Shown: piece after piece, positions 49,991-63,653 of the stretch
Layout: every line of letters begins with the position of its first letter
Position numbering within the stretch: the first letter of the stretch is position 1
Notes under the pieces: generated by a model
Seen by the model: the letters and a program-made list of their open reading frames with translations, nothing else
The model's database searches: none
Told to the model about the DNA's origin: nothing
Source: Candidatus Thiodiazotropha endoloripes
GTDB taxonomy: Bacteria; Pseudomonadota; Gammaproteobacteria; Chromatiales; Chromatiaceae
Assembly (NCBI GenBank): GCA_001709035.1
Contig: LVKA01000027.1
Coordinates: forward strand, 62,001-126,000
Direction: 5' to 3'
Length of the DNA stretch: 64,000 nt
Made by a program: the position numbers and the translations under genes

Positions 49991-51229
49991 ATGAAGACAT
50001 ACGATACAGATGTACTGATTATTGGCGCCGGGCCAGCCGGTGCCACGGCTGCCGCGCTGATTCACAAAGCCGGATTCAACTGCATGATGGTTGAGAAGCA
50101 GCGGTTTCCACGGTTTGTGATCGGTGAGAGCCTTTTGCCTCGCTGCATGGATCTGCTCGAAGAGGCTGACCTGCTTGGAGTTGTTCAGGATCAGAAATTC
50201 ATGGTTAAGGATGGCGCGGTTTTCAAACGCGGTGATGAGACCTGTACCTTCCAGTTCTCACAACAGTTCACCCAAGGCTGGAAGTATACCTATCAGGTAC
50301 CTCGTGAGGATTTTGATAAGGTGTTGGCCGAAAGTGTCGAAGCCCGTGGTGTTCCGGTGCTCTGGGGCCACGGTGTCACCGACGTGAACTTTTCTGATGA
50401 TGGCAGCTCCACCACGATGCTGGAGGATGAGCAGGGTGAACAGGCCAGTTTAACGGCCCGGTTTATTCTGGATGGCAGCGGCTATGGCCGGGTACTGCCC
50501 CGTCTGCTGGATCTCGATGAGAACTCCATGCTACCGCTGCGTGAGTCCTACTTTACCCATGTCACCGGCGACCTTCGCCCTGAAGGGGAAGGGGAGGGCC
50601 GGATCTGGATCTGTTCCCTGGACGATCCGGACAATGCCTGGATGTGGATCATCCCATTTTCAAACGGCAAGACCTCAGTTGGCGTGGTCGCCAAGCCGGA
50701 CTTTCTGGCCCGTTATCCCGAAGATCCGGACGAGAAGCTGCGGGCCATCATCGATGACAACAAGAACACCAGAGAGCGCCTGAAAAATGCCGAGTTTACC
50801 TTTCCGGTGCGGCGCATCAACGGCTATTCCATATCCGCCAAAAAGCTATTCGGCAATGGCTTTGCATTAATGGGCAATGCCACAGAATTCCTCGATCCGG
50901 TCTTTTCATCCGGCGTCACCCTGGCACTTGAATCCTCCAACCGGGCGGCAAAGACGCTGATCCGTCAGCTCCAGGGCGAGCGTGTGGATTGGCAGACAGA
51001 CTATGCGGATCACCTGATGATGGGAGTGAATACCTTCAGGACCTTTGTTACCGCCTGGTATGACGATCGTCTACCGACCATCTTCTACAGTGCCGTCAAA
51101 CCGGACGAGCTGCAGGATCAGATCTGTTCGGTACTCGCCGGATATGTCTGGGATAACGACAATCCCTGTGTGCGGGATCATCAGCGAACCGTCACGGTGA
51201 TCGCCAAGGCCTGTGCCCAATACGGCTGA
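49991..51229 (+). CDS. FAD-dependent oxidoreductase, halogenase-like
   Basis: A 412-residue flavoprotein of the tryptophan halogenase/geranylgeranyl reductase group. The FAD-binding VLIIGAGPAGATAAALI starts at residue 8, followed by GESLLPR near 45 and the second FAD motif GFALMGNATEFLDPVFSSG near 290. AWMWIIP near residue 217 fits the WxWxIP signature of flavin-dependent halogenases, and a conserved Lys (KDGAVFKRG) follows the GESLLP segment. The exact activity is inferred; a monooxygenase or reductase of the same superfamily remains possible. It stands alone on the plus strand facing the aryl-polyene-type locus at 52.9-63.7 kb. Confidence 0.8.
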   Translation: MKTYDTDVLIIGAGPAGATAAALIHKAGFNCMMVEKQRFPRFVIGESLLPRCMDLLEEADLLGVVQDQKFMVKDGAVFKRGDETCTFQFSQQFTQGWKYTYQVPREDFDKVLAESVEARGVPVLWGHGVTDVNFSDDGSSTTMLEDEQGEQASLTARFILDGSGYGRVLPRLLDLDENSMLPLRESYFTHVTGDLRPEGEGEGRIWICSLDDPDNAWMWIIPFSNGKTSVGVVAKPDFLARYPEDPDEKLRAIIDDNKNTRERLKNAEFTFPVRRINGYSISAKKLFGNGFALMGNATEFLDPVFSSGVTLALESSNRAAKTLIRQLQGERVDWQTDYADHLMMGVNTFRTFVTAWYDDRLPTIFYSAVKPDELQDQICSVLAGYVWDNDNPCVRDHQRTVTVIAKACAQYG

Positions 51230-51238
51230 ACTCAGTCA

Positions 51239-51264
51239 CCCGGTATGCCGCTCGGCATACCGGG
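51239..51264 (+). terminator. hairpin after the flavoprotein gene
   Basis: CCCGGTATGCCG-CT-CGGCATACCGGG, perfect 12-base arms starting 9 bases after the stop. No T run follows, so it may also be an mRNA stabiliser. Confidence 0.6.
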
Positions 51265-51364: not shown

Positions 51365-52036
51365 TTATGTGACGCGGTTGAGCATGCGCTCGCTACGAAT
51401 CAGTCTGGACCAGCTTTTGCCGGTATTGAACCAGAGAATATACCAACCTTCGATGATCATGCGGGGTAGTAGCAGCGGGCTGAACCTGAGTTCCGCTTCG
51501 CTGGCACAGAGTTGATGATTCAGGCTGAGGCTGGTGGCGATGGTACTGATACGGGCCAGATGATAGCGATTGCTGATCAAGGCCACCGGATAGGCATCCT
51601 GCTGCGACAGCATGGTTCTGGCATGCTGCAGATTTTCCAGGGTGTTCTGGGACTGTTGCTCCAAACGCAGGCGTGATTCCTCGATACCTTTGCCGATCAG
51701 ATAGTCGCGGCCAGCCTGGGCTTCAGTGACATCTTCTCCCGGTGCGGCACCTCCCACCAACAGCAGGGTCGAAGATGGATTGTTCAGCATCAGTTCGGCA
51801 GTTTTTTCCAGTCGCAGGTGGTAATCCTGGTCTATGCCCTGTTTGGTCAATCGCTTACCGAAGACCAGGAGGCTGTCACAATGGCACTCATTGGGGGCAG
51901 ATTTTGCGGTGCGGTAGACATAGATCAGGCTGATCAGTAACGGGATACCGATGCCGACGATCAGTAGTATCAGGGAGAGGCCGAAGGTCCAGAGTCCATC
52001 CCAATCGATTGCGCCCCGTTCAGGGTCGAATTGCAT
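51365..52036 (-). CDS. YdcF/SanA-like DUF218 membrane protein
   Basis: A 223-residue protein with one N-terminal membrane segment (about residues 15-41) and a DUF218 domain. Typical elements are SLLVFGKRLTKQG near 54, STLLLVGGAAPGEDVTEAQA near 88 and QSQNTLENLQHARTML near 128, then VALISNRYHLARI. DUF218 proteins such as SanA and ElyC affect cell-envelope integrity; the biochemical activity is unknown. Its start codon lies 4 bases from the end of the palindromic element at 52041, so its promoter region has been replaced by or lies inside that element. Confidence 0.85.
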   Translation of the reverse strand: MQFDPERGAIDWDGLWTFGLSLILLIVGIGIPLLISLIYVYRTAKSAPNECHCDSLLVFGKRLTKQGIDQDYHLRLEKTAELMLNNPSSTLLLVGGAAPGEDVTEAQAGRDYLIGKGIEESRLRLEQQSQNTLENLQHARTMLSQQDAYPVALISNRYHLARISTIATSLSLNHQLCASEAELRFSPLLLPRMIIEGWYILWFNTGKSWSRLIRSERMLNRVT

Positions 52037-52040
52037 GGCT

Positions 52041-52306
52041 AGGGCCTGTTAACACGAATCCAATAGGCCCTGCTGGGACTGTTTTTGTGTCCAGCAAGGC
52101 AGAATGAGCGTGGTGTAGCTCGGCTACATGAGCGAATGATAACGCCGCTGGGCGCAAAAACAGCCTAAGCCCTTCGGGTTGCGCCTGAAAATGCGCCACT
52201 CGGCGTTGCTCGTCACTCATTTGGAACACCAAACTACGCTCCTCGCGCCTTGATTGGCGCTTTTTCAGGCACAACAGGGCCTATTGGATTCGTTTTAACA
52301 GGCCCG
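52041..52306. mobile_element. MITE-like element with about 31-base terminal inverted repeats
   Basis: The left end (52041-52072) begins AGGGCCTGTTAACACGAATC and the right end (52275-52305) is its near-perfect reverse complement. The core of about 200 bases is rich in short hairpins (for example GCGCC-TTGATT-GGCGC near 52246) and encodes no convincing protein. Size, inverted ends and lack of a transposase fit a non-autonomous element, or paired REP sequences (BIME-like). Solo ends occur at 7678 and 37798. No clear target duplication is visible. Confidence 0.7.
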
Positions 52307-52335
52307 AGGGTGAAGTGTTATTTGGATGTGGATCC

Positions 52336-52886: not shown

Positions 52887-53636
52887 CTACTGCGCTGCAT
52901 GTTTGCGTGGATCAGCCAGTATGCCGAGACTGCGAAATAGCCCTTGGAGGTATAACCCTCTTTTGATCAACCGCCAGGCAATCATTCGTACAATACGCCA
53001 GGTATCTGTCCAGGGTCTGTAGTGACTTTGGCGTCTACCTACATGATAGATCGACTCGACTGGTACCGATACACTATAAAAGTTGTGGCTTGCCGCTTCA
53101 ATGACAATTTCACTTTCAAAAACAAAGCCTTTTTCTTTTGAGGTGTTTAGGCGTACATCCCTAAGCAAGTCAAAGGGATAGAGACGAAATCCCGACTGGG
53201 AATCGGTCACCGGATAACCGGCTGCCCAGGAGACCCAGAAATCGGCAAAACGGTTGGCGAACAGACGCAGCTTCGGGGCATTGTGGCGCTGTTTCAAGCG
53301 AGCGGCAATGATAATGCTGTTTGGATTGGCCTGGGCGGCACTGATCAGCTGGGGAATCTCGGCCGGATTGTGTTGACCATCCCCGTCCAGTGTGATGATC
53401 ATCTCCGCATTGAGTTTGATTGCGTGGTCGAAGCCGCTCTGCAGCGCAGTCGCTTTGCCCTGATTCTGTTCATGCCTCAACAGATGGACCTTGAGACCCT
53501 CGAGCTGACTCTGGCTGTCATCGGAAGAGCCGTCATCGACAATGATCACATTTTCCGTCTGCTGCAGGGCTGCCGTGGCCACATCCCGGATGGTTGCGGA
53601 TTCATTGTAGACTGGAATAACGACTGCGATTTGCAT
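52887..53636 (-). CDS. family 2 glycosyltransferase
   Basis: A 249-residue GT-A fold transferase like dolichyl-phosphate mannose synthases. The N-terminal VVIPVYNESATIRDV is followed by VDDGSSDDS near residue 35 and the DXD-type TLDGDGQHNP near 83, then a hydrophobic C-terminal half without clear membrane anchors. It lies 15 bases after the ketoreductase stop, so it belongs to the aryl-polyene-type operon. A GT2 member is usual in such loci, where a sugar or lipid linkage of the pigment is presumed. Confidence 0.85.
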   Translation of the reverse strand: MQIAVVIPVYNESATIRDVATAALQQTENVIIVDDGSSDDSQSQLEGLKVHLLRHEQNQGKATALQSGFDHAIKLNAEMIITLDGDGQHNPAEIPQLISAAQANPNSIIIAARLKQRHNAPKLRLFANRFADFWVSWAAGYPVTDSQSGFRLYPFDLLRDVRLNTSKEKGFVFESEIVIEAASHNFYSVSVPVESIYHVGRRQSHYRPWTDTWRIVRMIAWRLIKRGLYLQGLFRSLGILADPRKHAAQ

Positions 53637-53651
53637 CTTGATAGGCCCTGG

Positions 53652-54371
53652 TCAGGCCATTGCCCCATTGATTGAGATCACCTGGCCAGAAATATAGGCC
53701 GCCTCATCAGAGGCCAGAAAGCCCACCAGGGCTGCAACCTCATCGGGGGTGCCGGCCCGTTTCATCGGAACGATCTGTTTGATGGCATCCGCATTGAAGG
53801 CGGATGATGTCATGCTGCCTTCAATGATTCCCGGGGCAACCGCATTAGCTGTGACTCCGCGAGAGGCCAACTCCAAAGCCAGGGATTTGATCGCACCATG
53901 CAGTCCCGCCTTGGCGGCTGCATAGTTTGCCTGTCCCCGGTTGCCCATCACACCGGCAATCGAGGAGAGTGCAATCACTCTTCCCCAGCGGGTTGCCAGC
54001 ATTGGCAATAACAGGGGTTGGGCGACATTGTAGAAACCGCTGAGGGAGACATCGATTACCCGTTGCCACTGTTCAGCCTGCATGCCTGCCAGGGGAGCGT
54101 CGTCATGAATCCCCGCATTGTGAATGAGCGTCTGTATGGGGCCGGATTCGAGCAGCTTCTCCAGGGTTTGGCGGGCCGTCTCGCCGTCCCGGATATCGAA
54201 GACGCAGGTCTCCGCGCTGCCGCCGGATTGACGAATCGATTCAACCACCGCCTCGGCTCGGTCGGGATTGCTGTTGGCATGTACGATGACATGAGTTTCA
54301 GGCGAACTCAACTGTCGGCAGATTGCCGAACCGATATCCCCGCTGCCCCCTGTGACCAAGGCTCGCTTCAC
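53652..54371 (-). CDS. 3-oxoacyl-ACP reductase, FabG/ApeQ-like
   Basis: SDR-family ketoreductase of 239 residues. The NADP loop is VTGGSGDIGSAICRQL at residue 5, NAG is near 86, and the catalytic Ser (ALSSIAGVMGN) and YAAAK (near 150) are intact. The C-terminal FLASDEAAYISGQVISINGA is typical of FabG. In aryl-polyene synthesis this enzyme reduces the beta-keto group in each cycle. It overlaps the dehydratase gene by 4 bases. Confidence 0.93.
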   Translation of the reverse strand: MKRALVTGGSGDIGSAICRQLSSPETHVIVHANSNPDRAEAVVESIRQSGGSAETCVFDIRDGETARQTLEKLLESGPIQTLIHNAGIHDDAPLAGMQAEQWQRVIDVSLSGFYNVAQPLLLPMLATRWGRVIALSSIAGVMGNRGQANYAAAKAGLHGAIKSLALELASRGVTANAVAPGIIEGSMTSSAFNADAIKQIVPMKRAGTPDEVAALVGFLASDEAAYISGQVISINGAMA

Positions 54372-54820
54372 TGATTTTCCTCCGAATGTACGATCACCGC
54401 GGCTCTTCCCTCTGCTACCAGGACGGATTCAGTTTTGAGGACGAAATCATAGAGCATGTTGCCGCTGTCGGCCAGCAGCTGTGTAGCCTGGATCTGGAGT
54501 GGGGCATCGAGCTCATCCAGATAGCGGATATGCAGTTTCACACCACGCAGACTGACCAGATAGCCACCAGGTTGTTGTTCTCCCGATTGTCTGGCCAGCA
54601 GCCCGCCATGCAGGGCCATTGTTTGAGCACCATACTCGGCGGCATGCACCGCTGACAGCTGCCCGTTGCTGCGCAAGGGATGGTTGCTGTTGCGATGGCT
54701 TGAGGTTTGGCATTGGATCCGGGTTTCGTCCCAATCGACCACCTTGTCGATCAGCCGCATATCCCCCGCATGGGGAAGCAGGTTGTAGAGTTCTTCGCCC
54801 TCAAGCGATCGCGCTAGCAT
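54368..54820 (-). CDS. hotdog-fold 3-hydroxyacyl-ACP dehydratase, ApeP-like
   Basis: A 150-residue hotdog protein of the COG4706 type. LLPHAGDMRLIDKVVDW near residue 14 is the family start, NHPLRSNGQLSAVHAAEYGA is near 45, and a C-terminal strand region ends AEGRAAVIVHSEE. In characterised aryl-polyene systems such a subunit pairs with the ApeI-like dehydratase, and a homologue of the latter lies at 63079. Overlaps with both neighbours (7 and 4 bases) indicate coupled translation. Confidence 0.88.
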   Translation of the reverse strand: MLARSLEGEELYNLLPHAGDMRLIDKVVDWDETRIQCQTSSHRNSNHPLRSNGQLSAVHAAEYGAQTMALHGGLLARQSGEQQPGGYLVSLRGVKLHIRYLDELDAPLQIQATQLLADSGNMLYDFVLKTESVLVAEGRAAVIVHSEENQ

Positions 54821-55602
54821 GGCAGCAGTTCCGATTGCAGATTCAAGCCTGGCAGGTAGGGGAGGCTGAACTTTGCAGACTGACTCTGGGCAATCGCTTC
54901 CAGGATCGGCAGACTGCGGGCTGACGGAGCTGAAAGTCGGAGTTTTTCCAATGCCGGTTTCGATAACCTGCTCTCTGTGCCATCCGGCACCGTGCTCAGG
55001 TTGAGTCTGGCAATACCGCTGTCGCTCTCTGTCGTCAGCAGCATGGCGACGGCAAAGGGTTCGCCGATGGGCATGAAGGGTTGCAGCAGTTCCGGCGGTG
55101 GTTGATCGTAACAGACCAGCAATACCGGCACCCCCTCTACCACAGCTTGTACAGCGGCCTCCATCAGACCGGCCGCAAAGCTGCCGTTCAAACCGCCAAG
55201 ACTCGACGATCCCTGTCGGGAGCCCGCGCCGATCGACCAGTAACCCGCCGGTGCATTATGCACCGAGTTGTGAAACTGGGTCGGAGATACCGGACGTCCC
55301 TCCTCAGTCAGGGCAAGACAGATCTGATCGATGATATCCAGGTCACCCTCTGAAGAGCTGAAAACCGAAGCCAGCGTCTCTGTGTCGGTGAGATCCTGTA
55401 GGGCCTCTTCAGCCGCCTGCAGGGCGATCTTGATGGTTCGCGTGGTACGGCGACGCTCGTTGGGTTTCAGCATCGAGGGTTTCAGCGGGGGCAGTTCGCC
55501 ACCCTGATAGTCTGCCTCACTCTGCAGCAGCGCAGTTGCCTCCTGCCAGTTGCCGATGCCCTGGGCTACAACGCCAATCTTCTTGATGGTTACGGAAATC
55601 AT
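54814..55602 (-). CDS. ketosynthase-like chain-length factor
   Basis: A 262-residue protein of the Ketoacyl-synt_2 group that resembles the N-terminal half of a ketosynthase. It has RRRTTRTIKIALQAAEEAL near residue 50, SSEGDLDIIDQICLALTEE near 85 and FHNSVHNAPAGYWSIGAGSR near 109. A ketosynthase-type TACSS active site is absent, as in chain-length factors. In characterised aryl-polyene systems such a subunit pairs with the active ketosynthase. It overlaps the ketosynthase gene by 4 bases, which fits a heterodimer. Confidence 0.85.
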   Translation of the reverse strand: MISVTIKKIGVVAQGIGNWQEATALLQSEADYQGGELPPLKPSMLKPNERRRTTRTIKIALQAAEEALQDLTDTETLASVFSSSEGDLDIIDQICLALTEEGRPVSPTQFHNSVHNAPAGYWSIGAGSRQGSSSLGGLNGSFAAGLMEAAVQAVVEGVPVLLVCYDQPPPELLQPFMPIGEPFAVAMLLTTESDSGIARLNLSTVPDGTESRLSKPALEKLRLSAPSARSLPILEAIAQSQSAKFSLPYLPGLNLQSELLPC

Positions 55603-56780
55603 GTAGCCGCTCCGAAAATCAAGCTGCAGTTATTGCCACCGAAACCAAATGAGTTGCTCAGAACATGGCGTAACTGACGCTGCTCCGAATTGAGCAGAAT
55701 GTTCGCCCCCAGGGTTTCGTCCTGTTGTCTGGTTTGCAGACTCTGGGGCAACAGACCATCCTGCAGACAGAGCAGAGCGAAAATAGACTCGGTGATTCCA
55801 GCTGCCCCCAGGGTATGGCCGGTGAACCCCTTGGTGGAGCTGCAGGGGGTCTGATTACCGAACAGTCCGCAGACGGCGCTATCCTCCGAAGCATCGTTAC
55901 TTCGGGTCGCGGTACCGTGCAGATTGATGTAGTCGATATCGCCGATTTCGAGGCCGGCCCGTTCGAGGGCCTGTTGCATGGCGTGGCGCGCCCCGGCACC
56001 TTGCGGATGGGGCGTTGACATGTGATGAGCATCCGAACTTTCACCATAGCCGATCAGAGACGGGCATGAATCGTCATCCTGTGGTTTTTCCAGAAGAGCG
56101 AAACCCGCACCCTCACCGATGTTGATGCCATTACGCTGCCCATCCCAGGGGCGGCAAGGTTCGGCCGAGACCAGATCGAGTGCATTGAAGCCGTAGAGGG
56201 TGGTCAGGCAGAGGGAATCGACACCGCCGACAATCGCCGCATCACAGACTCCGGCAGTGATATAGCGGTAGGCAGCAGCAAACACCTTGGCGCTGGAAGA
56301 GCAGGCTGTGGAGATGGTGATCGCCGCGCCATTCAGGCCCAGGTAGTCACGTATGAAGTGGCTCGATGAGGCGATGTTATGGGTATATTGAGGTGTGTAC
56401 TCTGCCGGTAAAGCGTCATTGACACGTGTCCGATAGGCCGTTTCAGTGGTGGCGATGCCAGAGGTGCTGGTGCCTATGAAGACGCCGATACGATCCGCGC
56501 CGTAGCGCTCCACCGCCTGTTTGACCGCCGGCAGGAAGTCGTCCTGCTGCAGGGCCAGCTGCGCCAGACGATTGTTGCGGCAATCGTAGTCCGACACGCT
56601 ATCCTGCAGTGGCATATCCTCCAGTCCGGAGACCCGTCCGATCCAGGTGGAGAGGTCCACATTCTCCAGGTTGCAGGGCTGCAGACCGCTCTTGCCCGTG
56701 CGCAGTGCCTCCAGGGAGGCCGGTTTGCCACACCCGAGTGCATTGGTCAGGGTATAGTGGGTTATCGATAAGGGGGTCAT
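55599..56780 (-). CDS. beta-ketoacyl-ACP synthase, FabF/ApeO-like
   Basis: Condensing enzyme of 393 residues. The active-site Cys160 lies in TISTACSSSAKVF, the first His in INLHGTATRSND near 287 and the second in KGFTGHTLGAAG near 320, so the catalytic triad is complete. It extends the polyene by repeated condensation with malonyl-ACP; the chain-length-factor-like gene follows immediately. It starts a second transcription block after a 394-base gap from the AMP-ligase gene. Confidence 0.93.
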   Translation of the reverse strand: MTPLSITHYTLTNALGCGKPASLEALRTGKSGLQPCNLENVDLSTWIGRVSGLEDMPLQDSVSDYDCRNNRLAQLALQQDDFLPAVKQAVERYGADRIGVFIGTSTSGIATTETAYRTRVNDALPAEYTPQYTHNIASSSHFIRDYLGLNGAAITISTACSSSAKVFAAAYRYITAGVCDAAIVGGVDSLCLTTLYGFNALDLVSAEPCRPWDGQRNGINIGEGAGFALLEKPQDDDSCPSLIGYGESSDAHHMSTPHPQGAGARHAMQQALERAGLEIGDIDYINLHGTATRSNDASEDSAVCGLFGNQTPCSSTKGFTGHTLGAAGITESIFALLCLQDGLLPQSLQTRQQDETLGANILLNSEQRQLRHVLSNSFGFGGNNCSLIFGAAT

Positions 56781-57174
56781 TATAGAGCCTGTAATCTATC
56801 TTTTTCGTTTATCTTTGTCGTCTGTTCGCCTGCAAACCGACGCCATTGAAATGTTCCAGCGTATGGCCAAATCTGAAACATCAGCAGCTGCAGATCCATT
56901 ATGCATTGTGATTTTTCCACGTCGACCAAGCTGTCCTCCTCAAACCGCCTATGGCCCATTATCGGGCACACCAGGCTCCACCGGAATAGGCTGAATCGGT
57001 ACTTTCATATTACTTTGTTCTGATGCCTTAAGTCGAAGCTGGCTATTATGCGAGCCGTGGCAAAATATGACAATGTTATATACATCCTGTAACTAACAAA
57101 TATAGCCTTGTAATTCGTAGTCTTAGAGCCAGTTGTTAAATGAAGTTATAGAAACAGGTACCCAGTTTAAAGAT
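56781..57174. other. intergenic gap inside the aryl-polyene locus
   Basis: All flanking genes read leftward, so this gap should contain a promoter for the ketosynthase block. It is AT-richer than its neighbours toward 57000-57174. A 63-codon frame at 56780-56971 has no family features or ribosome site and was not called. No terminator or operator was recognised. Confidence 0.5.
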
Positions 57175-58527
57175 TTATTTGATCGCTTTCAGGAAATCGA
57201 TCAATTGTTCTCGCGGCAGTTTTCCGGTGGAGTTTCTCGGCAGTGACGTCACGAAATGGAGTGGTCTGGGGAGAAATGCCGCATCGATCGATTGAGCAAG
57301 CTGATGGAGTATCTCCTGTTTGCTGAGTGACGGGGCCACCACCAGCGCGGTCAGCCGCTGTTTCTCATTGTTCGGATCCTCAGGGGGGACAAAGATCCCA
57401 TCGATCACTCCGGGTATGGCCAGCAGTTTCTGGTTCAGGTCGCCGATCGAGGCCCGTTTGCCGGCGATCTTAAGCATATCGTTATTGCGCCCCAGCAGTC
57501 TGAAGCGACCACCGTTGAGGATCTCGATATTATCGTTGAGCAGTACCGGGTGAGGGAGATGCCCGCCGCTGGCGTAGGTCTGGTTGCCCTGCTGGGTCAT
57601 CTCGATACCATCATAGAGAGTCCAGGACTCTTCCTTGGCGGTGCGCCGGCTGGCAATCGAGCCGGTTTCGGTGGAACCGTAGATCTCATAGAGCTCGGTT
57701 TGCAGTTGCTGCTCCGCCTCGGCGGCAAGCTCTCTGCTGAGTGGCGCCGTGGCTGAGATGATGAAGGAGATCTCCGGCCAGCTGATACCGGCGTCCAGGC
57801 AGGCCCGCAGATGGAGTGGTGTGCTGATCAGAACCCTCGGCGCTGAAGTGAGTGCCAGATCGGCCGCGATGTCCGCCGGAAACAGCGGTCGTCCGGTATG
57901 TACCGCGATACCCCCTTGCCAGGGGAAAAATATCGATGTGGCCAGTCCATACATGTGTTGGGCAGGTACCGTTGCCACCAGTGATGAGACGGAACGGGAG
58001 AGGAACGGAAAACGCTGCAATGCACTTTCGGCTTCCGCCTTCAGCTCTCCCCAGCTCTTGGGGTTGGGTTTGGGTGTACCGGTGGAGCCTGAGGTATAGA
58101 GGATGGCAACCTGACGATCCGCTTCGATCTGTTCCGGCAGCGCTATTGAATCGCTGTTCTCGGCATCCAGCAGTTCTGTGTAGAGTAGCTGCCGGGCTTG
58201 GATTCCCTGCTGCAACTGATCGGTCAGGCAATAACCGTCACGGCTCTTGTTCAACAGACTGTTCACCGCGCCCGGCGTATTGTTGGAGGGCATCAGAGTA
58301 ACCTGCTGGCGCACAATCGCGGCGGCAAAGCTGACGGCGAAGTGATAGCGGTCTTCACACAGATTTACCACCTGTCCGGCTTCAGGTAGCTGGGCTGCCA
58401 GCTTGGCCACATCCTGATAAAACTGGGCGGCCGAGATACCGGCGCCACGGTGCCAGGCGGCGAGCTGCTGTGGATGGTGCACCAGCATACTGCAGTGAAT
58501 TGGGCTGTTTAAAGCAGGCTGCGCCAT
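57175..58527 (-). CDS. AMP-dependent acyl/aryl-ACP ligase, ApeH-like
   Basis: ANL-family adenylating enzyme of 450 residues. The AMP-binding P-loop is AILYTSGSTGTPKPNPKSW near residue 141, the adenine motif is EIYGSTETGS near 290 and a C-terminal SLPRNSTGKLPREQ carries the catalytic Lys. In aryl-polyene synthesis it loads the starter aryl acid onto an acyl carrier protein. It overlaps the upstream membrane-protein gene by 19 bases. Confidence 0.9.
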   Translation of the reverse strand: MAQPALNSPIHCSMLVHHPQQLAAWHRGAGISAAQFYQDVAKLAAQLPEAGQVVNLCEDRYHFAVSFAAAIVRQQVTLMPSNNTPGAVNSLLNKSRDGYCLTDQLQQGIQARQLLYTELLDAENSDSIALPEQIEADRQVAILYTSGSTGTPKPNPKSWGELKAEAESALQRFPFLSRSVSSLVATVPAQHMYGLATSIFFPWQGGIAVHTGRPLFPADIAADLALTSAPRVLISTPLHLRACLDAGISWPEISFIISATAPLSRELAAEAEQQLQTELYEIYGSTETGSIASRRTAKEESWTLYDGIEMTQQGNQTYASGGHLPHPVLLNDNIEILNGGRFRLLGRNNDMLKIAGKRASIGDLNQKLLAIPGVIDGIFVPPEDPNNEKQRLTALVVAPSLSKQEILHQLAQSIDAAFLPRPLHFVTSLPRNSTGKLPREQLIDFLKAIK

Positions 58528-59174
58528 TCAATTCTCCGGACCAGTCGAACGAAATTCAGAAAACCGGGATGCTCAAGATGGGGCAGTTTGCGCTCCCTGA
58601 TACGATATTCGATGAGTAATCCCGCAATAACAATTAGATAGTTTACAAAGTTCGTGAAAAGTGACCAGGTTTCTGTGTCAGCATAATGTGCCAGAAGGGC
58701 GCTCTCAATCGTCAAAAACGCAAACATGCACGACCAGAACAGGGTGACCCGCCGGGTGTAGAGGCGTTCGTAATCGTTCAAATCCCGCTCATCTTTGTGC
58801 ATCAGCTCCGCAAAGCGGGTGATCAATGGCGTCTGTCCAGGCAGCAGGGTCATGGTAAACAGTGTAAACAGGCTACCGTTGATTGCTATCGGCGGCAATT
58901 TCAAAAGCTGAATCGTATCCGGCTTCATGAAGATCAACCAGGCAATGCCAAACAGGGCGATGGCAATGATCAGCCAGCCGATCAGCCGGCCTTTGATCAG
59001 CTCAAGTCCACCCCAGTTCGCTAGCAGCAACATCAGGATCAGGCTGGGTGCGGTCAGGCTGTCACTGACGACGCCGAAATGGAGCACCAGAGGATAGGCG
59101 AGGGCGAGCAGCAGCAAGCCGATGTGAGCAAGTCGCCGCAGTGGGTCGTTAACTTCGTGTTGGACTCCGTTCAT
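58509..59174 (-). CDS. COG4648-type integral membrane protein
   Basis: A 221-residue inner-membrane protein with about six hydrophobic segments, including LAHIGLLLLALAYPLVLHFG and LIGWLIIAIALFGIAWLIF. The conserved RFAELMHKDERDLNDYERLY and YTRRVTLFWSCMFAF match the family found in aryl-polyene loci. The function is unknown; it may help deliver lipid-linked product. ATG 59174 is preferred; GTG 59195 would add seven residues. The gene is coupled to the AMP ligase. Confidence 0.8.
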   Translation of the reverse strand: MNGVQHEVNDPLRRLAHIGLLLLALAYPLVLHFGVVSDSLTAPSLILMLLLANWGGLELIKGRLIGWLIIAIALFGIAWLIFMKPDTIQLLKLPPIAINGSLFTLFTMTLLPGQTPLITRFAELMHKDERDLNDYERLYTRRVTLFWSCMFAFLTIESALLAHYADTETWSLFTNFVNYLIVIAGLLIEYRIRERKLPHLEHPGFLNFVRLVRRIEWRSLL

Positions 59175-59243
59175 TATTATTTCGTAGCTCAGCACCAGGT
59201 CTATGACACGATTTAGTCAAAACCTGAGCTTGGTCCTTTAACT

Positions 59244-61550
59244 CTATGAATTCATTCGGGACAAGGCGTAAGTGGCAAGATAGCTCATTACAACGCCGAT
59301 GGCGACTGTCAGGCCGATTGCGTGTAACACGGGAATCGAAGAACTGGCAAGGATCGCAAACACACCTGCGGTACTCAGGGCGCAAACGCTCAGGGCATGC
59401 AGGGTTAGCAGTGCATCACCCTGCTGCTGTTCGCGACGGCCGAAAAACAGGCTGTAATCCAGACCGATGCCCAGTACCAGCATCAGTGAGATCAGATGAA
59501 ACAGGTTCAGGGCTTCACCCATCAAATGTAACACACCCACACTGGCCAGAATAGCCAGGCCGATGGGTATCAGGGTGGTCAGCGCCCGTTTCAACGAGCC
59601 CAGGCCAATCCACAACAGGATCAGCATCAGACCACTGCCGAGGGCCACCCGCTGCAGGATCTGCAGTCTGAAATCCCCCACCAGGCCACTCACCTCCTGC
59701 TTCAGGTTCAGATAACTCACCTCAGGAAGGTTTGCCTCAACATAGATCTTAATCTGCTCGGGATCGGCAACAGTTTGCAGGGGGATCAGAGCGAACCAGG
59801 CCGATTGACCCTCGCGGATCATGCTCTCCAGGCGGGTTTTCAACTCGCTCGACATGGCCTCCGCATAGCTGAGGGGAGGCAGGCTGCGGCTCTGTTCGAT
59901 CGCTGCGATAAACGGATCAAAAGCAGCCTCGCGAAACGGCAGTCCCTGCATGGCCTGTTGCAGATTGTCCGAGAGCCCCTGCCGATCGGGCAATGATTGT
60001 TGCCTGGCACTCTGTTGCTGTTCACTGGGGAGATAATCACTGGGGAGTGAGATGTCGATCAACGAAGCGCCTGCCGGATCCTGTTGCAGATGCTGGCGTA
60101 GCGCTTCACTGTGCTGCAGCAGCTGTTGTGGATCCTCCGCTTGGATCAGCAACAGGTGGCTGGGATCGCTGGTGCTGAAATGTTGGCGAAGCTGCCGATC
60201 CTGCTCCAGCAATGCCTTGGGCAGCGGGGAGAAGGTGGCAATATCATCCTGCCAGAGCGGCTTCGAGGAGAGCAGCAGAGTGGTCAGGCTGATCACCGCC
60301 AATGCAAGCATCACCAGTGAGGGCCAGATCTTCCTTTTGAGCATCACACTGAGCAGCGTCATGCCTCTTGGCTGAGGCGGTGAGAAGGGTTGGGGAAAGA
60401 CTCTCGGCAGCAGCAGGCGGCTGGTCAATGCGGCCGTCAGCAGACCGGTCAGGGTAAACAGGCCCAGTTGACGCAGCCCAACGAAATCGGTGGTCAACAG
60501 CACCAGATAGGCGATGCAGGTGGTGATGACCCCCAGGCGCAGGGTTCGCCAGATCGACAGCATGGTGCTGTCTACCGGCTCGGAGTGACGAAGATGGCTG
60601 AACAGATGGATCGGGTAGTCCAGTGTCACCCCGAGCAAGGTGATGCCGAATGCCAGGGTGATGCCATGCAACTCACCAAACGCAAGCTGACAGACGATGG
60701 CGCCGGCCAGCAGGGCACTCAGTAGTGGCAGGGCGGCAAACAGCAGATAGGGGAGAAACCGGTAGGCACTGAACAACAGCAGAGCGATCAGTGCCGAGGC
60801 GACCATGCTGAGCGTCTGGGTCTCATAGTGGATGACAGCCCTGGATTGCACGCCGAAAACGCCAGGGCCGCTGATGATCAAGTGATGTTTGGCATCTTGA
60901 TCGAGACGGGCAAACTCATCCCGCAGATAGGTGAGAACCGCCTGCTGCTCATCGAGTTCGAGTCCTCCGGCCCGGGTCTGTACCAGCAGCAGGGCCATCT
61001 CCCCCTGCTTCGACTGCCACACACCCTGTTCCCGGTGGATGCTCTGTTCGGCCAGCCAACTGCGCAGCATGGCCTGGTAACTGCCCATGGGATCGGCTGC
61101 CAGAAGATCCTTGAATGGGGAGGGGAAGGGGGCTTTCAACTCCTCCAGACGCTGCTTCAGCGCTGTATTGAGACGCTCCGCGCTGAATGCTGAAGCCCCG
61201 ACCCCGGGTGAGATCAGGTAGCGGTATTTGAAAAGCAGCGGATCGATCTGCAACGCCCCGGGAGCGCCGTTTTCAACCCGGCTGAGCAGGGGGCTGGTGC
61301 GTAGACGGGCTGTCAATTGTTGACTGAGATCGGCGCGGGATATCGCATCGCCTTGAGTGATCGCCAGCAATAGCAGTCGGTTGGCCGGGCCCTGATTGAT
61401 TTCATTCAGCAGTATCTGCTGGTCCGGGGCTGTGCCCTCCGGCAGAAACAGGCTCATATCGGTACGCAAGGAGACCTGACTGAACACCCACCAACTGCAG
61501 AGTGCCAGTGCGGCAAGCCAGGCCAGCAGGGTGTGTATTCGGATGGTCAT
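59244..61550 (-). CDS. MMPL/RND-family exporter
   Basis: A 768-residue transporter with two RND-like repeats. N-terminal and middle membrane bundles include IYSG-type segments such as FGITLLGVTLDYPIHLF near residue 300 and LMLVLGIGLDYSLFFGRRE near 690, each with the acidic residue expected in the proton relay (D of LDY). Large periplasmic loops separate them. Members of this family export lipids, and in aryl-polyene loci it likely moves the finished lipid across or out of the inner membrane. LolA-like and acyltransferase genes precede it. Confidence 0.9.
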   Translation of the reverse strand: MTIRIHTLLAWLAALALCSWWVFSQVSLRTDMSLFLPEGTAPDQQILLNEINQGPANRLLLLAITQGDAISRADLSQQLTARLRTSPLLSRVENGAPGALQIDPLLFKYRYLISPGVGASAFSAERLNTALKQRLEELKAPFPSPFKDLLAADPMGSYQAMLRSWLAEQSIHREQGVWQSKQGEMALLLVQTRAGGLELDEQQAVLTYLRDEFARLDQDAKHHLIISGPGVFGVQSRAVIHYETQTLSMVASALIALLLFSAYRFLPYLLFAALPLLSALLAGAIVCQLAFGELHGITLAFGITLLGVTLDYPIHLFSHLRHSEPVDSTMLSIWRTLRLGVITTCIAYLVLLTTDFVGLRQLGLFTLTGLLTAALTSRLLLPRVFPQPFSPPQPRGMTLLSVMLKRKIWPSLVMLALAVISLTTLLLSSKPLWQDDIATFSPLPKALLEQDRQLRQHFSTSDPSHLLLIQAEDPQQLLQHSEALRQHLQQDPAGASLIDISLPSDYLPSEQQQSARQQSLPDRQGLSDNLQQAMQGLPFREAAFDPFIAAIEQSRSLPPLSYAEAMSSELKTRLESMIREGQSAWFALIPLQTVADPEQIKIYVEANLPEVSYLNLKQEVSGLVGDFRLQILQRVALGSGLMLILLWIGLGSLKRALTTLIPIGLAILASVGVLHLMGEALNLFHLISLMLVLGIGLDYSLFFGRREQQQGDALLTLHALSVCALSTAGVFAILASSSIPVLHAIGLTVAIGVVMSYLATYALSRMNS

Positions 61551-61596
61551 TGTCGGTTCATGCTATCGGTGGGGCTTGCAGAGGACCAGTCGACAC

Positions 61597-62190
61597 TCAT
61601 TCCCCGATGGGCATCAACTGGGTGATGATCTGATCACCGTTGCTCTCGATCACCAGGTAGCGTTCGATCTGCAGGTCTGTTCCTGTGATCTCGATACGGG
61701 TGATCTTGTTGCCCAGTGCCCCCGCTCTGGGGATCAGATTCAGGCGCCAGGCATCCCGGCTGCCAGTCAGTTCGGGGTTGAAATAGCGTTCGAGTGTCTC
61801 CCGATCACCACTCAATACCGAGCGGAAGGAGGCGCTGAAAGCCAGCAGTTCCGGGATGTTGTCCAGCAGCACAACCTGTTGCTGTTGATTCCGCCACAGG
61901 GTCAGCCGATTCCCCTCGATCTCATATTTGGTGCGGCTCGGTGGTGCGAGGGTTCTGACCAATCGATCGGGTGGCTGGAACAGCAGGGTGCCCTGTTGTT
62001 CGATCGGTTGATCGAGCAGGGCCAGTTGGCGTGTTTCGGTGAAACGGGCCTGCCGCTCGCCAGACGCCTGCCACTGAGTCATCAGATAGTCCAATGACCA
62101 GTGCGGTTCTTCGGCCGCTGCCGGTAAGCTCAGACTGAACAACAGCAGAACGAGTGACAGAAAGGTGATCCCTGACCTATTCAGAGGCAT
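61597..62190 (-). CDS. LolA-like outer-membrane lipoprotein carrier
   Basis: A 197-residue periplasmic protein with a cleavable signal (ITFLSLVLLLFSLSLPAAA) and a LolA-type fold: QWQASGERQARFTETRQLAL near residue 40, GTLLFQPPDRLVRTLAPPS near 65, and IEGNRLTLW. The LolA family ferries hydrophobic cargo across the periplasm, so this copy is likely dedicated to the aryl-polyene lipid. ATG 62190 was chosen; the longer frame upstream lies in the acyltransferase gene. It overlaps that gene by 14 bases. Confidence 0.88.
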   Translation of the reverse strand: MPLNRSGITFLSLVLLLFSLSLPAAAEEPHWSLDYLMTQWQASGERQARFTETRQLALLDQPIEQQGTLLFQPPDRLVRTLAPPSRTKYEIEGNRLTLWRNQQQQVVLLDNIPELLAFSASFRSVLSGDRETLERYFNPELTGSRDAWRLNLIPRAGALGNKITRIEITGTDLQIERYLVIESNGDQIITQLMPIGE

Positions 62191-63082
62191 CGTCGCGCCC
62201 CCAGAAGTCGTAGAAATTAAACCAGTTGTAGGGCGCGTGACGGGCATGGAACTCCAACCTGTCCGCATAGCGCTGGGTCCAGGTTTGCAACATCTCCTCC
62301 CGACGTCCCCGCTCAAGCTCCACCCGATCGGTAAAATGCTCCATACGGATCTGATAGCGGTTTCCCCCCAGGTAGAGTCCGAAGAAGAGAAATACCGGGC
62401 ACTTCATGATCGAGGCAAGCAGCATCGGGCCCTGGGGAAAGGTGGTGTCCCGGCCGAGAAACTGGCACTGCACGGTTTTGTTGGTATCGGTGACGCGGTC
62501 ACCCAGCAGACCGAGGATGCCGCCCTGATCGACCACCTCCTGGGCTTTAATCAGGGTGTCTGGTCGGCCCAGCTCGATGATGCTGTCGACGAGCGATGGG
62601 TTCAGCTCGGAGAAGACCTGCATCATCATCTCGTTGTGTTGAGGATACATGAGGATCTTCAGCGGCAGTTCCCGTTTTGTGATCGCCGTGGCGCGAAGAA
62701 TCTCAAAACTGCCCAGATGGGAACCGAGCAGAATGCAGCCCTGATTGGCATCGAGATGTTGGGCGATCAGCTTATGGTTGTGGATCTCCAGATCGAAGTA
62801 GTCATAGCGATCCGCCATCAGGAATACCCGGTCGAGGATGGTGGCCGAGAAGGTGTGTATGTGTTTGGCGTTATCGAGCAGGTTGGCGGGGCGGTCGAGG
62901 GTAAGATTGAGATAATCGGTCGAGGCACGCCGCTGGTTGGATCCGGTGATCAGGAAGTAGAGGGTGATCGGGTAGAGTATCAGGCGAGCGGTGAATCTCC
63001 CAAGATTCAAGGCAATCCAGAGAATCAGATGGAGCGCACCTGTGGTACCCCGTTCAACCTGCCCCTGCCATCGTCTGCTCAA
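62177..63082 (-). CDS. LpxL/HtrB-type acyltransferase
   Basis: A 301-residue membrane-associated acyltransferase of the lauroyl-transferase family. The catalytic HX4E motif is GSHLGSFE with His122 and Glu127; LGRPDTLIKAQEVVDQGG near 180 and LLGDRVTDTNKTVQCQF near 205 are also typical. One N-terminal membrane segment is present (LILWIALNLGRF). The TTG start at 63082 overlaps the previous stop as TTGA. It probably attaches the polyene acyl group to a lipid acceptor. Confidence 0.88.
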   Translation of the reverse strand: MSRRWQGQVERGTTGALHLILWIALNLGRFTARLILYPITLYFLITGSNQRRASTDYLNLTLDRPANLLDNAKHIHTFSATILDRVFLMADRYDYFDLEIHNHKLIAQHLDANQGCILLGSHLGSFEILRATAITKRELPLKILMYPQHNEMMMQVFSELNPSLVDSIIELGRPDTLIKAQEVVDQGGILGLLGDRVTDTNKTVQCQFLGRDTTFPQGPMLLASIMKCPVFLFFGLYLGGNRYQIRMEHFTDRVELERGRREEMLQTWTQRYADRLEFHARHAPYNWFNFYDFWGRDDASE

Positions 63083-63387
63083 GGATTTGATCCACTCTCA
63101 ATATAGGCCAGCTTGCCGGCTGTTATGATTTGATCATCGACTGCACACTCGAAGCTGATCTGGCCGGGTTTCATTTCAGCGCGTAGCTCAAAGCCCTGTT
63201 CAGGCAGCAGCGGCTGCATGAATTTGGCGGTGATGATTTCATTGATGCTGATCTCGGGTAAATGGTGTTCAAGCAGCTCGATCACCCGGTCCAGGATCAA
63301 AGTTCCCGGTACGATGGGATTGTCTGGGAAATGGCCAGCCAGACAGGGATGATCTTTGGCAAAGGGGTCTGCTGTTTCGCGCCACAC
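63079..63387 (-). CDS. FabZ-type hotdog dehydratase, ApeI-like
   Basis: A 102-residue hotdog-fold protein. The active-site helix AGHFPDNPIVPGTLILDRVI lies near residue 17, with KFMQPLLPEQGFELRAEM near 60. It is short for FabZ, as expected for an ApeI-type subunit that needs an ApeP-type partner (54368-54820). The GTG start at 63387 lies 2 bases after the ACP stop. Confidence 0.88.
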   Translation of the reverse strand: MWRETADPFAKDHPCLAGHFPDNPIVPGTLILDRVIELLEHHLPEISINEIITAKFMQPLLPEQGFELRAEMKPGQISFECAVDDQIITAGKLAYIESGSNP

Positions 63388-63389
63388 AG

Positions 63390-63653
63390 TCAGCGATTAT
63401 CCACGATGTACTGAGTCAATTTGGATAGGGAAGAGAAGATCTCGGTGAGATTCTCGTCGTCAGCTTTTAATTGAATGCCGAATTTCTGTTTGATACCTAA
63501 TGAAAGCTCCAGTGCGTCAATCGAGTCGAGTCCGAGGCCGTCTCTAAACAGGGGTGCGTCAGATTCAATTTCTTCAGCAGTGACGTCTTCCAGATTGAGG
63601 GTCTCAACAATCAGCTGAGCAACTTCGAGTTCGGTAGGTGATGCACTTTCCAT
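63390..63653 (-). CDS. acyl carrier protein
   Basis: Small acidic protein (87 residues) carrying growing chains on phosphopantetheine. The attachment site is GLGLDSIDALEL with Ser44. The length suits a dedicated ACP rather than general AcpP, whose usual LGADSLDT motif differs. It is the first gene visible in the leftward aryl-polyene block; further genes may lie beyond the window edge. Confidence 0.93.
   Translation of the reverse strand: MESASPTELEVAQLIVETLNLEDVTAEEIESDAPLFRDGLGLDSIDALELSLGIKQKFGIQLKADDENLTEIFSSLSKLTQYIVDNR

Follow-up and report, generated by a model that had tools for sequence, protein, structure and literature searches.

Aryl polyenes are yellow pigments, and halogenated ones are already known. 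According to the available text of PMC8253772, the head groups of aryl polyenes (APEs) can be halogenated, as in xanthomonadin. The accessible part of PMC3691225 places halogenase genes in xanthomonadin-type clusters, beside a KS/CLF-like pair; in that same text, these genes are absent from the clusters of Lysobacter enzymogenes and Xylella fastidiosa, and the Lysobacter pigment is described without a bromine pattern. The consulted portion of PMC3949708 gives arcA, a gene of the arcuflavin cluster, as a halogenase. The protein described here belongs to a clade whose closest solved member is a structural genomics entry from Cytophaga hutchinsonii (PDB ID: 3NIX) that was deposited as a flavoprotein/dehydrogenase without a function. 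In a literature search outside of which many journals lie, no characterized member of this 3NIX clade was found, nor was anything that joins 3nix and halogenase. For flexirubin together with halogenase, the text examined held nothing about an enzyme of this type. Likewise, nothing was found with both Thiodiazotropha and polyene, and the search for Thiodiazotropha with biosynthetic gene cluster returned nothing on the enzyme. Candidatus Thiodiazotropha comprises gill symbionts of lucinid clams. The genus is placed by NCBI in the family Sedimenticolaceae of the Gammaproteobacteria.

The window, meaning the whole 64,000-nucleotide stretch of Candidatus Thiodiazotropha endoloripes DNA that was analyzed, contains a complete open reading frame (ORF) at 49991..51229 on the + strand that begins with ATG and encodes a flavin-dependent halogenase-like protein of 412 aa. 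The coordinates given in the initial annotation were borne out, as were its three motifs, GAGPAG (residues 12-17), GESLLP (residues 45-50) and WMWIIP (residues 217-222, fitting WxWxIP). The protein scores 93 bits with the Pfam family Trp_halogenase (PF04820; cut-off, 21) and 79 bits with FAD_binding_3, more than chance would give. No other gene of the genome matches PF04820 in full; two further places show N-terminal matches of 35-37 positions that score 21.1-21.6 bits. A homologue with 97% identity is present in Candidatus Thiodiazotropha sp. 'RUGA'. Among the best 25 of 50 NCBIfam matches, none exceeds its own cut-off, including the CmlS equivalog NF033113 (155.9 bits, cut-off 900).

In a 48-row alignment of the window protein and 47 of the 80 best homologous loci, the G12, G14 and G17 residues of the GxGxxG FAD-binding motif are invariant in 48/48 rows, as are K73, W217, W219, I221 and P222. 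Residue K73, the presumed catalytic Lys by analogy with K79 of PrnA, aligns with a Lys in 7/7 reference chains, of which one is 3nix and six are named halogenases. Loss of this residue had been named beforehand as an argument against a halogenase; as judged by alignment, it is retained throughout. A wider alignment gives the same picture for the Lys and WxWxIP together, which are found in 7/7 rows from the family, 33/33 other rows of the 3nix clade (3nix included), and 14/14 and 15/15 rows of the two gammaproteobacterial groups described below as gI and gII, or all 69 clade and group rows in addition to the six other reference halogenases. A third motif, F300-x-DP-x-FSSG308, is kept across the 3nix-clade, gI and gII rows save for one Ala at position 307. 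It is identical in 5/7 reference chains, with one change in CmlS and two in FasV (8zop).

An AlphaFold2 model built from the 48-row alignment has a mean pLDDT of 93.9 and a pTM of 0.92. Among solved structures, 3nix is the best match (E 3e-131). A profile search of the PDB also has 3nix first (519 bits), followed by ChlB4 (188 bits), PltA (185 bits) and further halogenases, and then by the geranylgeranyl reductase 3oz2 (59 bits). The structural ranking among 1000 re-aligned chains is similar: 3nix (Z 60.8, rmsd 1.1, 49% identity over 404 residues) precedes nine halogenase entries with Z values of 47.8-38.1, namely PltA, ChlB4, Bmp2 (twice), FasV, Mpy16, CndH, RadH and CmlS. The 3NIX protein shares all 18 tabulated motif residues with the window protein and differs in its position in the Bacteroidota part of the tree. 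PltA, ChlB4, Mpy16 and Bmp2, all of which act on carrier-tethered substrates, fold alike (Z 45.9-47.8) but are only 25-27% identical to the window protein. The first three have the Lys, WxWxIP and F-x-DP-x-FSSG in common with it (Bmp2 lies outside the motif table), and form a clade of their own (100/100) that a long branch separates from that of the window protein (Bmp2 is not in the tree). CmlS, CndH and FasV also share the fold, the Lys and WxWxIP, but they are 27-29% identical and fall in a separate clade (99/97).

Directly below the halogenases in the Z ranking are HspB (37.3), PnpA (37.1) and, from 36.7 downward, the p-hydroxybenzoate hydroxylases (PHBH). The border between the two classes (CmlS 38.1, HspB 37.3, PHBH 36.7) is a gap of less than one unit, and thus the fold alone cannot decide between a halogenase and a hydroxylase. 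It is therefore conceivable, if unlikely, that the protein is a PHBH- or QhpG-like flavin-dependent hydroxylase which acts on the aryl head, has kept the halogenase motifs and inserts oxygen rather than halogen. The closeness of the PHBH-type structures (Z 36-37, compared with 38-48 for the halogenases) and matches of 74-97 bits to the QhpG, LodB and GoxB models fit such an enzyme. However, the sequence scores of the PDB profile search favor halogenases, the clade shows no variation in the Lys or WxWxIP, both of which also occur in all seven reference chains, six of which are named halogenases, and most of these chains carry an identical F-x-DP-x-FSSG. On the strength of sequence, these motifs argue against a hydroxylase. 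The quinohaemoprotein and oxidase maturases (QhpG, LodB, GoxB) were rejected as identities for the protein, as their scores lie far under the family cut-offs (QhpG, 97.2 bits against 240; LodB, 94.7 bits against 400).

To place the protein among its relatives, a maximum-likelihood tree of 78 rows was used, which stands without PrnA-type tryptophan halogenases, the Xanthomonas halogenase and Azoarcus ArcA. The Sedimenticolaceae proteins form one clade (99/100) that is sister to Verrucomicrobiota sequences (97/92). Both lie in the large 3nix clade (97/100), whose other members come from Bacteroidota, Myxococcota and a small number of further phyla, together with 14 gammaproteobacterial rows, here called gI, among which L111 and L113 are placed away from the remaining 12. 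Another set of gammaproteobacterial sequences, gII, is separate from the 3nix clade and only 27-36% identical to the window protein; the naming of both groups followed inspection of the tree. The gII proteins, among which the Xanthomonas halogenase and Azoarcus ArcA would be expected, are taken as the halogenases of xanthomonadin-type clusters and, like the window protein, are encoded beside aryl-polyene β-ketoacyl-ACP synthase (KAS) genes, in most cases for a KAS of the type found in the window. A joint clade of gII and the clade of the window protein is rejected, as forcing the two together lowers the likelihood by 79.9 (p-AU 6e-6).

The geranylgeranyl reductases 3oz2 and L137 fall outside and are split from 75 rows at 100/98, a placement that carries a long-branch warning. 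The clustering with these reductases that was raised at the outset as a possible refutation is thus not seen in a tree that includes PltA and CmlS. A member of the geranylgeranyl reductase family, or an inactive flavoprotein with look-alike motifs, is a highly improbable identity for the protein and has largely been refuted already. These reductases share the N-terminal FAD motif and the flavoprotein fold class with the window protein, and the superfamily model TIGR02032 matches it at 112.8 bits, but this score is below the family cut-off of 158.8. In addition, V or I occupies the position of the Lys in the reductases, and in WxWxIP the first Trp is replaced by Tyr and the Ile by Phe, so that the strand reads Y-x-W-x-F-P in 3oz2 and Y-G-W-V-F-P in L137. 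Score, tree and motif each led to the rejection of a geranylgeranyl reductase. As for inactivity, the NG86 dN/dS is ~0.06-0.07 against three congeners, two of which have a dS near 2 and are near saturation; from these values, the gene appears to be under constraint.

The halogenase gene lies beside an aryl-polyene locus that spans 52887 to 63653 on the - strand (Table 1). As first described, it is on the strand opposite to the core aryl-polyene genes; it converges with the DUF218 gene and has its own 5′ region. The elements reported between the gene and the locus were also recovered. The DUF218 gene is present, and the MITE-like element fits an imperfect inverted repeat with 76-nt arms that are 75% complementary, lie 118 nt apart and enclose two smaller repeats. 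The ORF labeled a lipoprotein is present as well; no Pfam or NCBIfam family was found for it. Homologues of the DUF218 gene (L162, L178) and of the 132-aa ORF (L162, L176) are found beside other aryl-polyene KAS loci, and these two may therefore be genes of the locus, not mere spacers. Between the convergent halogenase and DUF218 genes, a hairpin with perfect 12-bp arms has a predicted folding energy of -24.9 kcal/mol (z -6.0). It is terminator-like, although a T-run was not seen in the sequence, and is possibly a shared terminator of the two genes.

Table 1 Features at and beside the aryl-polyene locus of the window.
Feature	Coordinates	Strand	Basis or remark
Halogenase-like flavoprotein, 412 aa	49991..51229	+	PF04820
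Hairpin between convergent genes	51239..51264	.	RNA fold
DUF218 protein	51365..52036	-	Pfam
Inverted repeat, first and second arm	52039-52114/52233-52308		whole element 52039-52308
ORF, 132 aa	52374..52772	-	called a lipoprotein in the initial annotation
Family 2 glycosyltransferase	52887..53636	-	
3-ketoacyl-ACP reductase (KR)	53652..54371	-	NF004200 over cut-off; flexirubin FlxB match under cut-off
Putative dehydratase, 150 aa	54368..54820	-	by position; no Pfam hit
Chain-length-factor-like half ketosynthase (Ketoacyl-synt_2), presumed KAS partner	54814..55602	-	compare ORF16 in the available text of PMC3691225
β-Ketoacyl-ACP synthase (KAS)	55599..56780	-	NF006618 over cut-off
AMP-forming ligase, would load the aryl starter	57175..58527	-	
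Probable membrane protein, 228 aa	58509..59195	-	locus context
MMPL/RND-type exporter	59244..61550	-	
LolA-like carrier	61597..62316	-	name from locus architecture
Acyltransferase-like protein	62177..63082	-	name from locus architecture
Small putative dehydratase, 102 aa	63079..63387	-	by position
Acyl carrier protein, 87 aa	63390..63653	-	by sequence and position

In genome G007 (C5:26941-46597; L106, L107), ~20 kb of sequence that contains other ORFs splits the halogenase gene from the DUF218 gene.

The initial annotation had called the link between the halogenase and the aryl-polyene locus positional only, which proved too cautious. The halogenase gene is present in 11/22 Candidatus Thiodiazotropha genomes (E ≤ 1e-20), and the aryl-polyene AMP ligase is found in exactly those 11 and in 0/11 of the others, such that presence and absence agree in 22/22. 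The chance of such a match would be 1 in 705,432 if the genomes were independent, a figure overstated by their kinship, and the co-occurrence may reflect one or a few inherited events. Across the family, 13 genomes carry a close homologue (the 11 of the genus, G044 and G065), with the ligase on the same contig in 10 and on a different contig in three. In these 10 genomes, halogenase and ligase are 5.7-6.0 kb apart in eight and 25 kb apart in G007; in G065, 0.13 kb separates the two matched stretches. The last of these, from another genus of the same family, has the ligase, halogenase, KAS, CLF and dehydratase genes in order on one strand, with a gap of ~60 bp (63 bp) from the ligase ORF to the halogenase ORF. 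In G065, the halogenase gene thus lies inside the pigment operon.

These observations bear on whether the protein is a genuine halogenase whose target is not the aryl polyene but another metabolite, with a neighborhood that is partly accidental. The opposite strand and separate 5′ region in the window are in keeping with such a role, as is the 25-kb distance in G007; the match with the pigment ligase throughout the genus and the position inside the G065 operon are not. More distant genomes add to both sides. In the 16 gammaproteobacterial genomes with a gI halogenase (38-49% identity), the gene lies ≤7.2 kb from a KAS match (39-49% identity) in 14, which again argues for the pigment; the two exceptions are G209, with its KAS on another contig, and G323 (55% complete), without a KAS match. 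In the 21 gII genomes (20 of 39 plus G055; 15 are in the tree and the rest were assigned by identity), halogenase and KAS are within 24 kb in 11, 0.33 Mb apart in one and on different contigs in nine.

Beyond these genomes, at least 554 stretches encode a relative of the halogenase at E ≤ 1e-3, not all of which necessarily belong to the 3nix clade. Neighborhoods were compared for the best 80 of these at least 554 loci, taken from named records. A KAS hit (E ≤ 1e-20) is found in 46, an aromatic amino acid lyase in 32 and either in 55; the KAS hits may include generic ketosynthases, and the counts stand without a background rate. Nine of the 80 have an aromatic lyase and no KAS hit. Among the 43 loci from outside the genus with ≥19 kb of sequence, 30 have a KAS or aromatic lyase and 13 have neither, and thus the 3nix clade is not exclusive to pigments of the aryl-polyene type. 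The nine and the 13 loci would suit a halogenase with a different product. Weighed against the co-occurrence and operon evidence, an unrelated metabolite is nonetheless an improbable target for the window enzyme.

Where an aromatic lyase is present (32/80), the median distance between the match starts of lyase and halogenase is 222 bp. The lyases, which are putatively specific for tyrosine, were assigned by PF00221, a family that the L030 representative matches at 510 bits. O-methyltransferase genes adjoin the lyase in L031, L044 and L059. The adjacency suggests that the substrate of the halogenase is a hydroxyphenyl compound. A lyase was rejected as the local source of the starter in the genus, as no PF00221 match was found in the 15 genomes examined of the 22 congeneric ones. 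UbiC is present in 22/22 of these genomes, with or without the pigment cluster, which indicates that 4-hydroxybenzoate can be made and nothing more. Based on these two results, the starter may be 4-hydroxybenzoate.

Taken together, the scores, motifs, tree, fold, co-occurrence and G065 operon support the original proposal of a halogenase linked to the aryl polyene, with the chemistry drawn by analogy. We consider it probable that the ORF at 49991-51229 encodes a FADH2-dependent halogenase of the hydroxyaryl head of the aryl-polyene pigment. The modeled fold is common to PltA, Bmp2, Mpy16, CndH and CmlS. By analogy with the enzymology of such proteins, FADH2 from a separate reductase would react with O2 and halide, either chloride or bromide, to give HOX. 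The HOX would then move along a tunnel that the WxWxIP strand lines and reach K73, the residue that would hand X+ to an electron-rich hydroxyaryl ring. This ring would belong to the aryl polyene from the neighboring type II PKS, as its aromatic head, and could be modified as the ligase-activated starter, the ACP-bound starter or the finished pigment. We infer the catalysis, substrate and timing from these parallels. The pigment of the bacteria that carry the gene is probably chlorinated or brominated, although a halogenase gene is no guarantee of a halogenated pigment. If correct, this assignment would provide a function for the solved 3NIX structure and its relatives, and halogenated pigments would be expected in a genus of symbionts of marine animals.

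The synthase beside the halogenase groups with clusters of which most have a halogenase of another clade. In a KAS tree without L173, L156, L161 and L171, the window KAS groups with the KAS of gII-bearing clusters (94/98), outside of the clade of gI-linked KAS (97/98). For its placement nested in versus sister to the gII-linked KAS, two runs gave p-AU values of 0.15 and 0.25 on the same unrooted split. The KR is 57-70% identical to that of the gII-bearing type versus 39-48% to that of the gI type, and gene content together with the KR and KAS identities is closer to the gII-bearing cluster type. These results indicate that the window combines a xanthomonadin-type synthase with a halogenase of the 3NIX type. 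Within the same family, G055 has kept a gII halogenase with a xanthomonadin-type synthase. Outside of it, G209 (L111) has a 3nix-type halogenase and, on another contig, a KAS 55% identical to that of the window, and the KAS of the Myxococcota loci L036 and L037, also with 3nix-type halogenases, joins the side of the window weakly (83/65). The reverse pairing is seen in G126 (L173), where the halogenase is of the gII group and the KAS, 14 kb away, is of the other type (43%). These cases speak against a strict pairing of halogenase and synthase types, and the simplest reading is that halogenase types have been exchanged between aryl-polyene systems.

A broader reading is that the 3NIX clade is an unrecognized, dedicated family of hydroxyaryl halogenases that extends over Bacteroidota, Verrucomicrobiota, Myxococcota and Gammaproteobacteria and is linked with flexirubins, with aryl polyenes and with small operons that contain an aromatic lyase. 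Beside the xanthomonadin-type synthase of Candidatus Thiodiazotropha and its family, one member would have replaced the other type of halogenase, and the resulting aryl polyene would be chlorinated or brominated. We hold this combined reading tentatively, at slightly less than even weight; it is weakened by the fact that the mixed pairing is not unique to the family and by the one reverse pairing. If true, it would mean that halogenase types have moved between aryl-polyene systems, and the clade would be a new source of hydroxyaryl-halogenating biocatalysts.

Two further neighborhoods were observed among the best 80 loci. In a Verrucomicrobiota locus (L032:12363-13703), a second gene of the Trp_halogenase family (97 bits) is found near the 3nix-type one. 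Finally, the 3nix-type halogenases of L052, L054, L055, L056 and L069, neighborhoods in which no KAS or aromatic lyase hit was found, share a different setting that includes a flavoprotein of one family (Amino_oxidase for the L054 member); these halogenases possibly act on another substrate.
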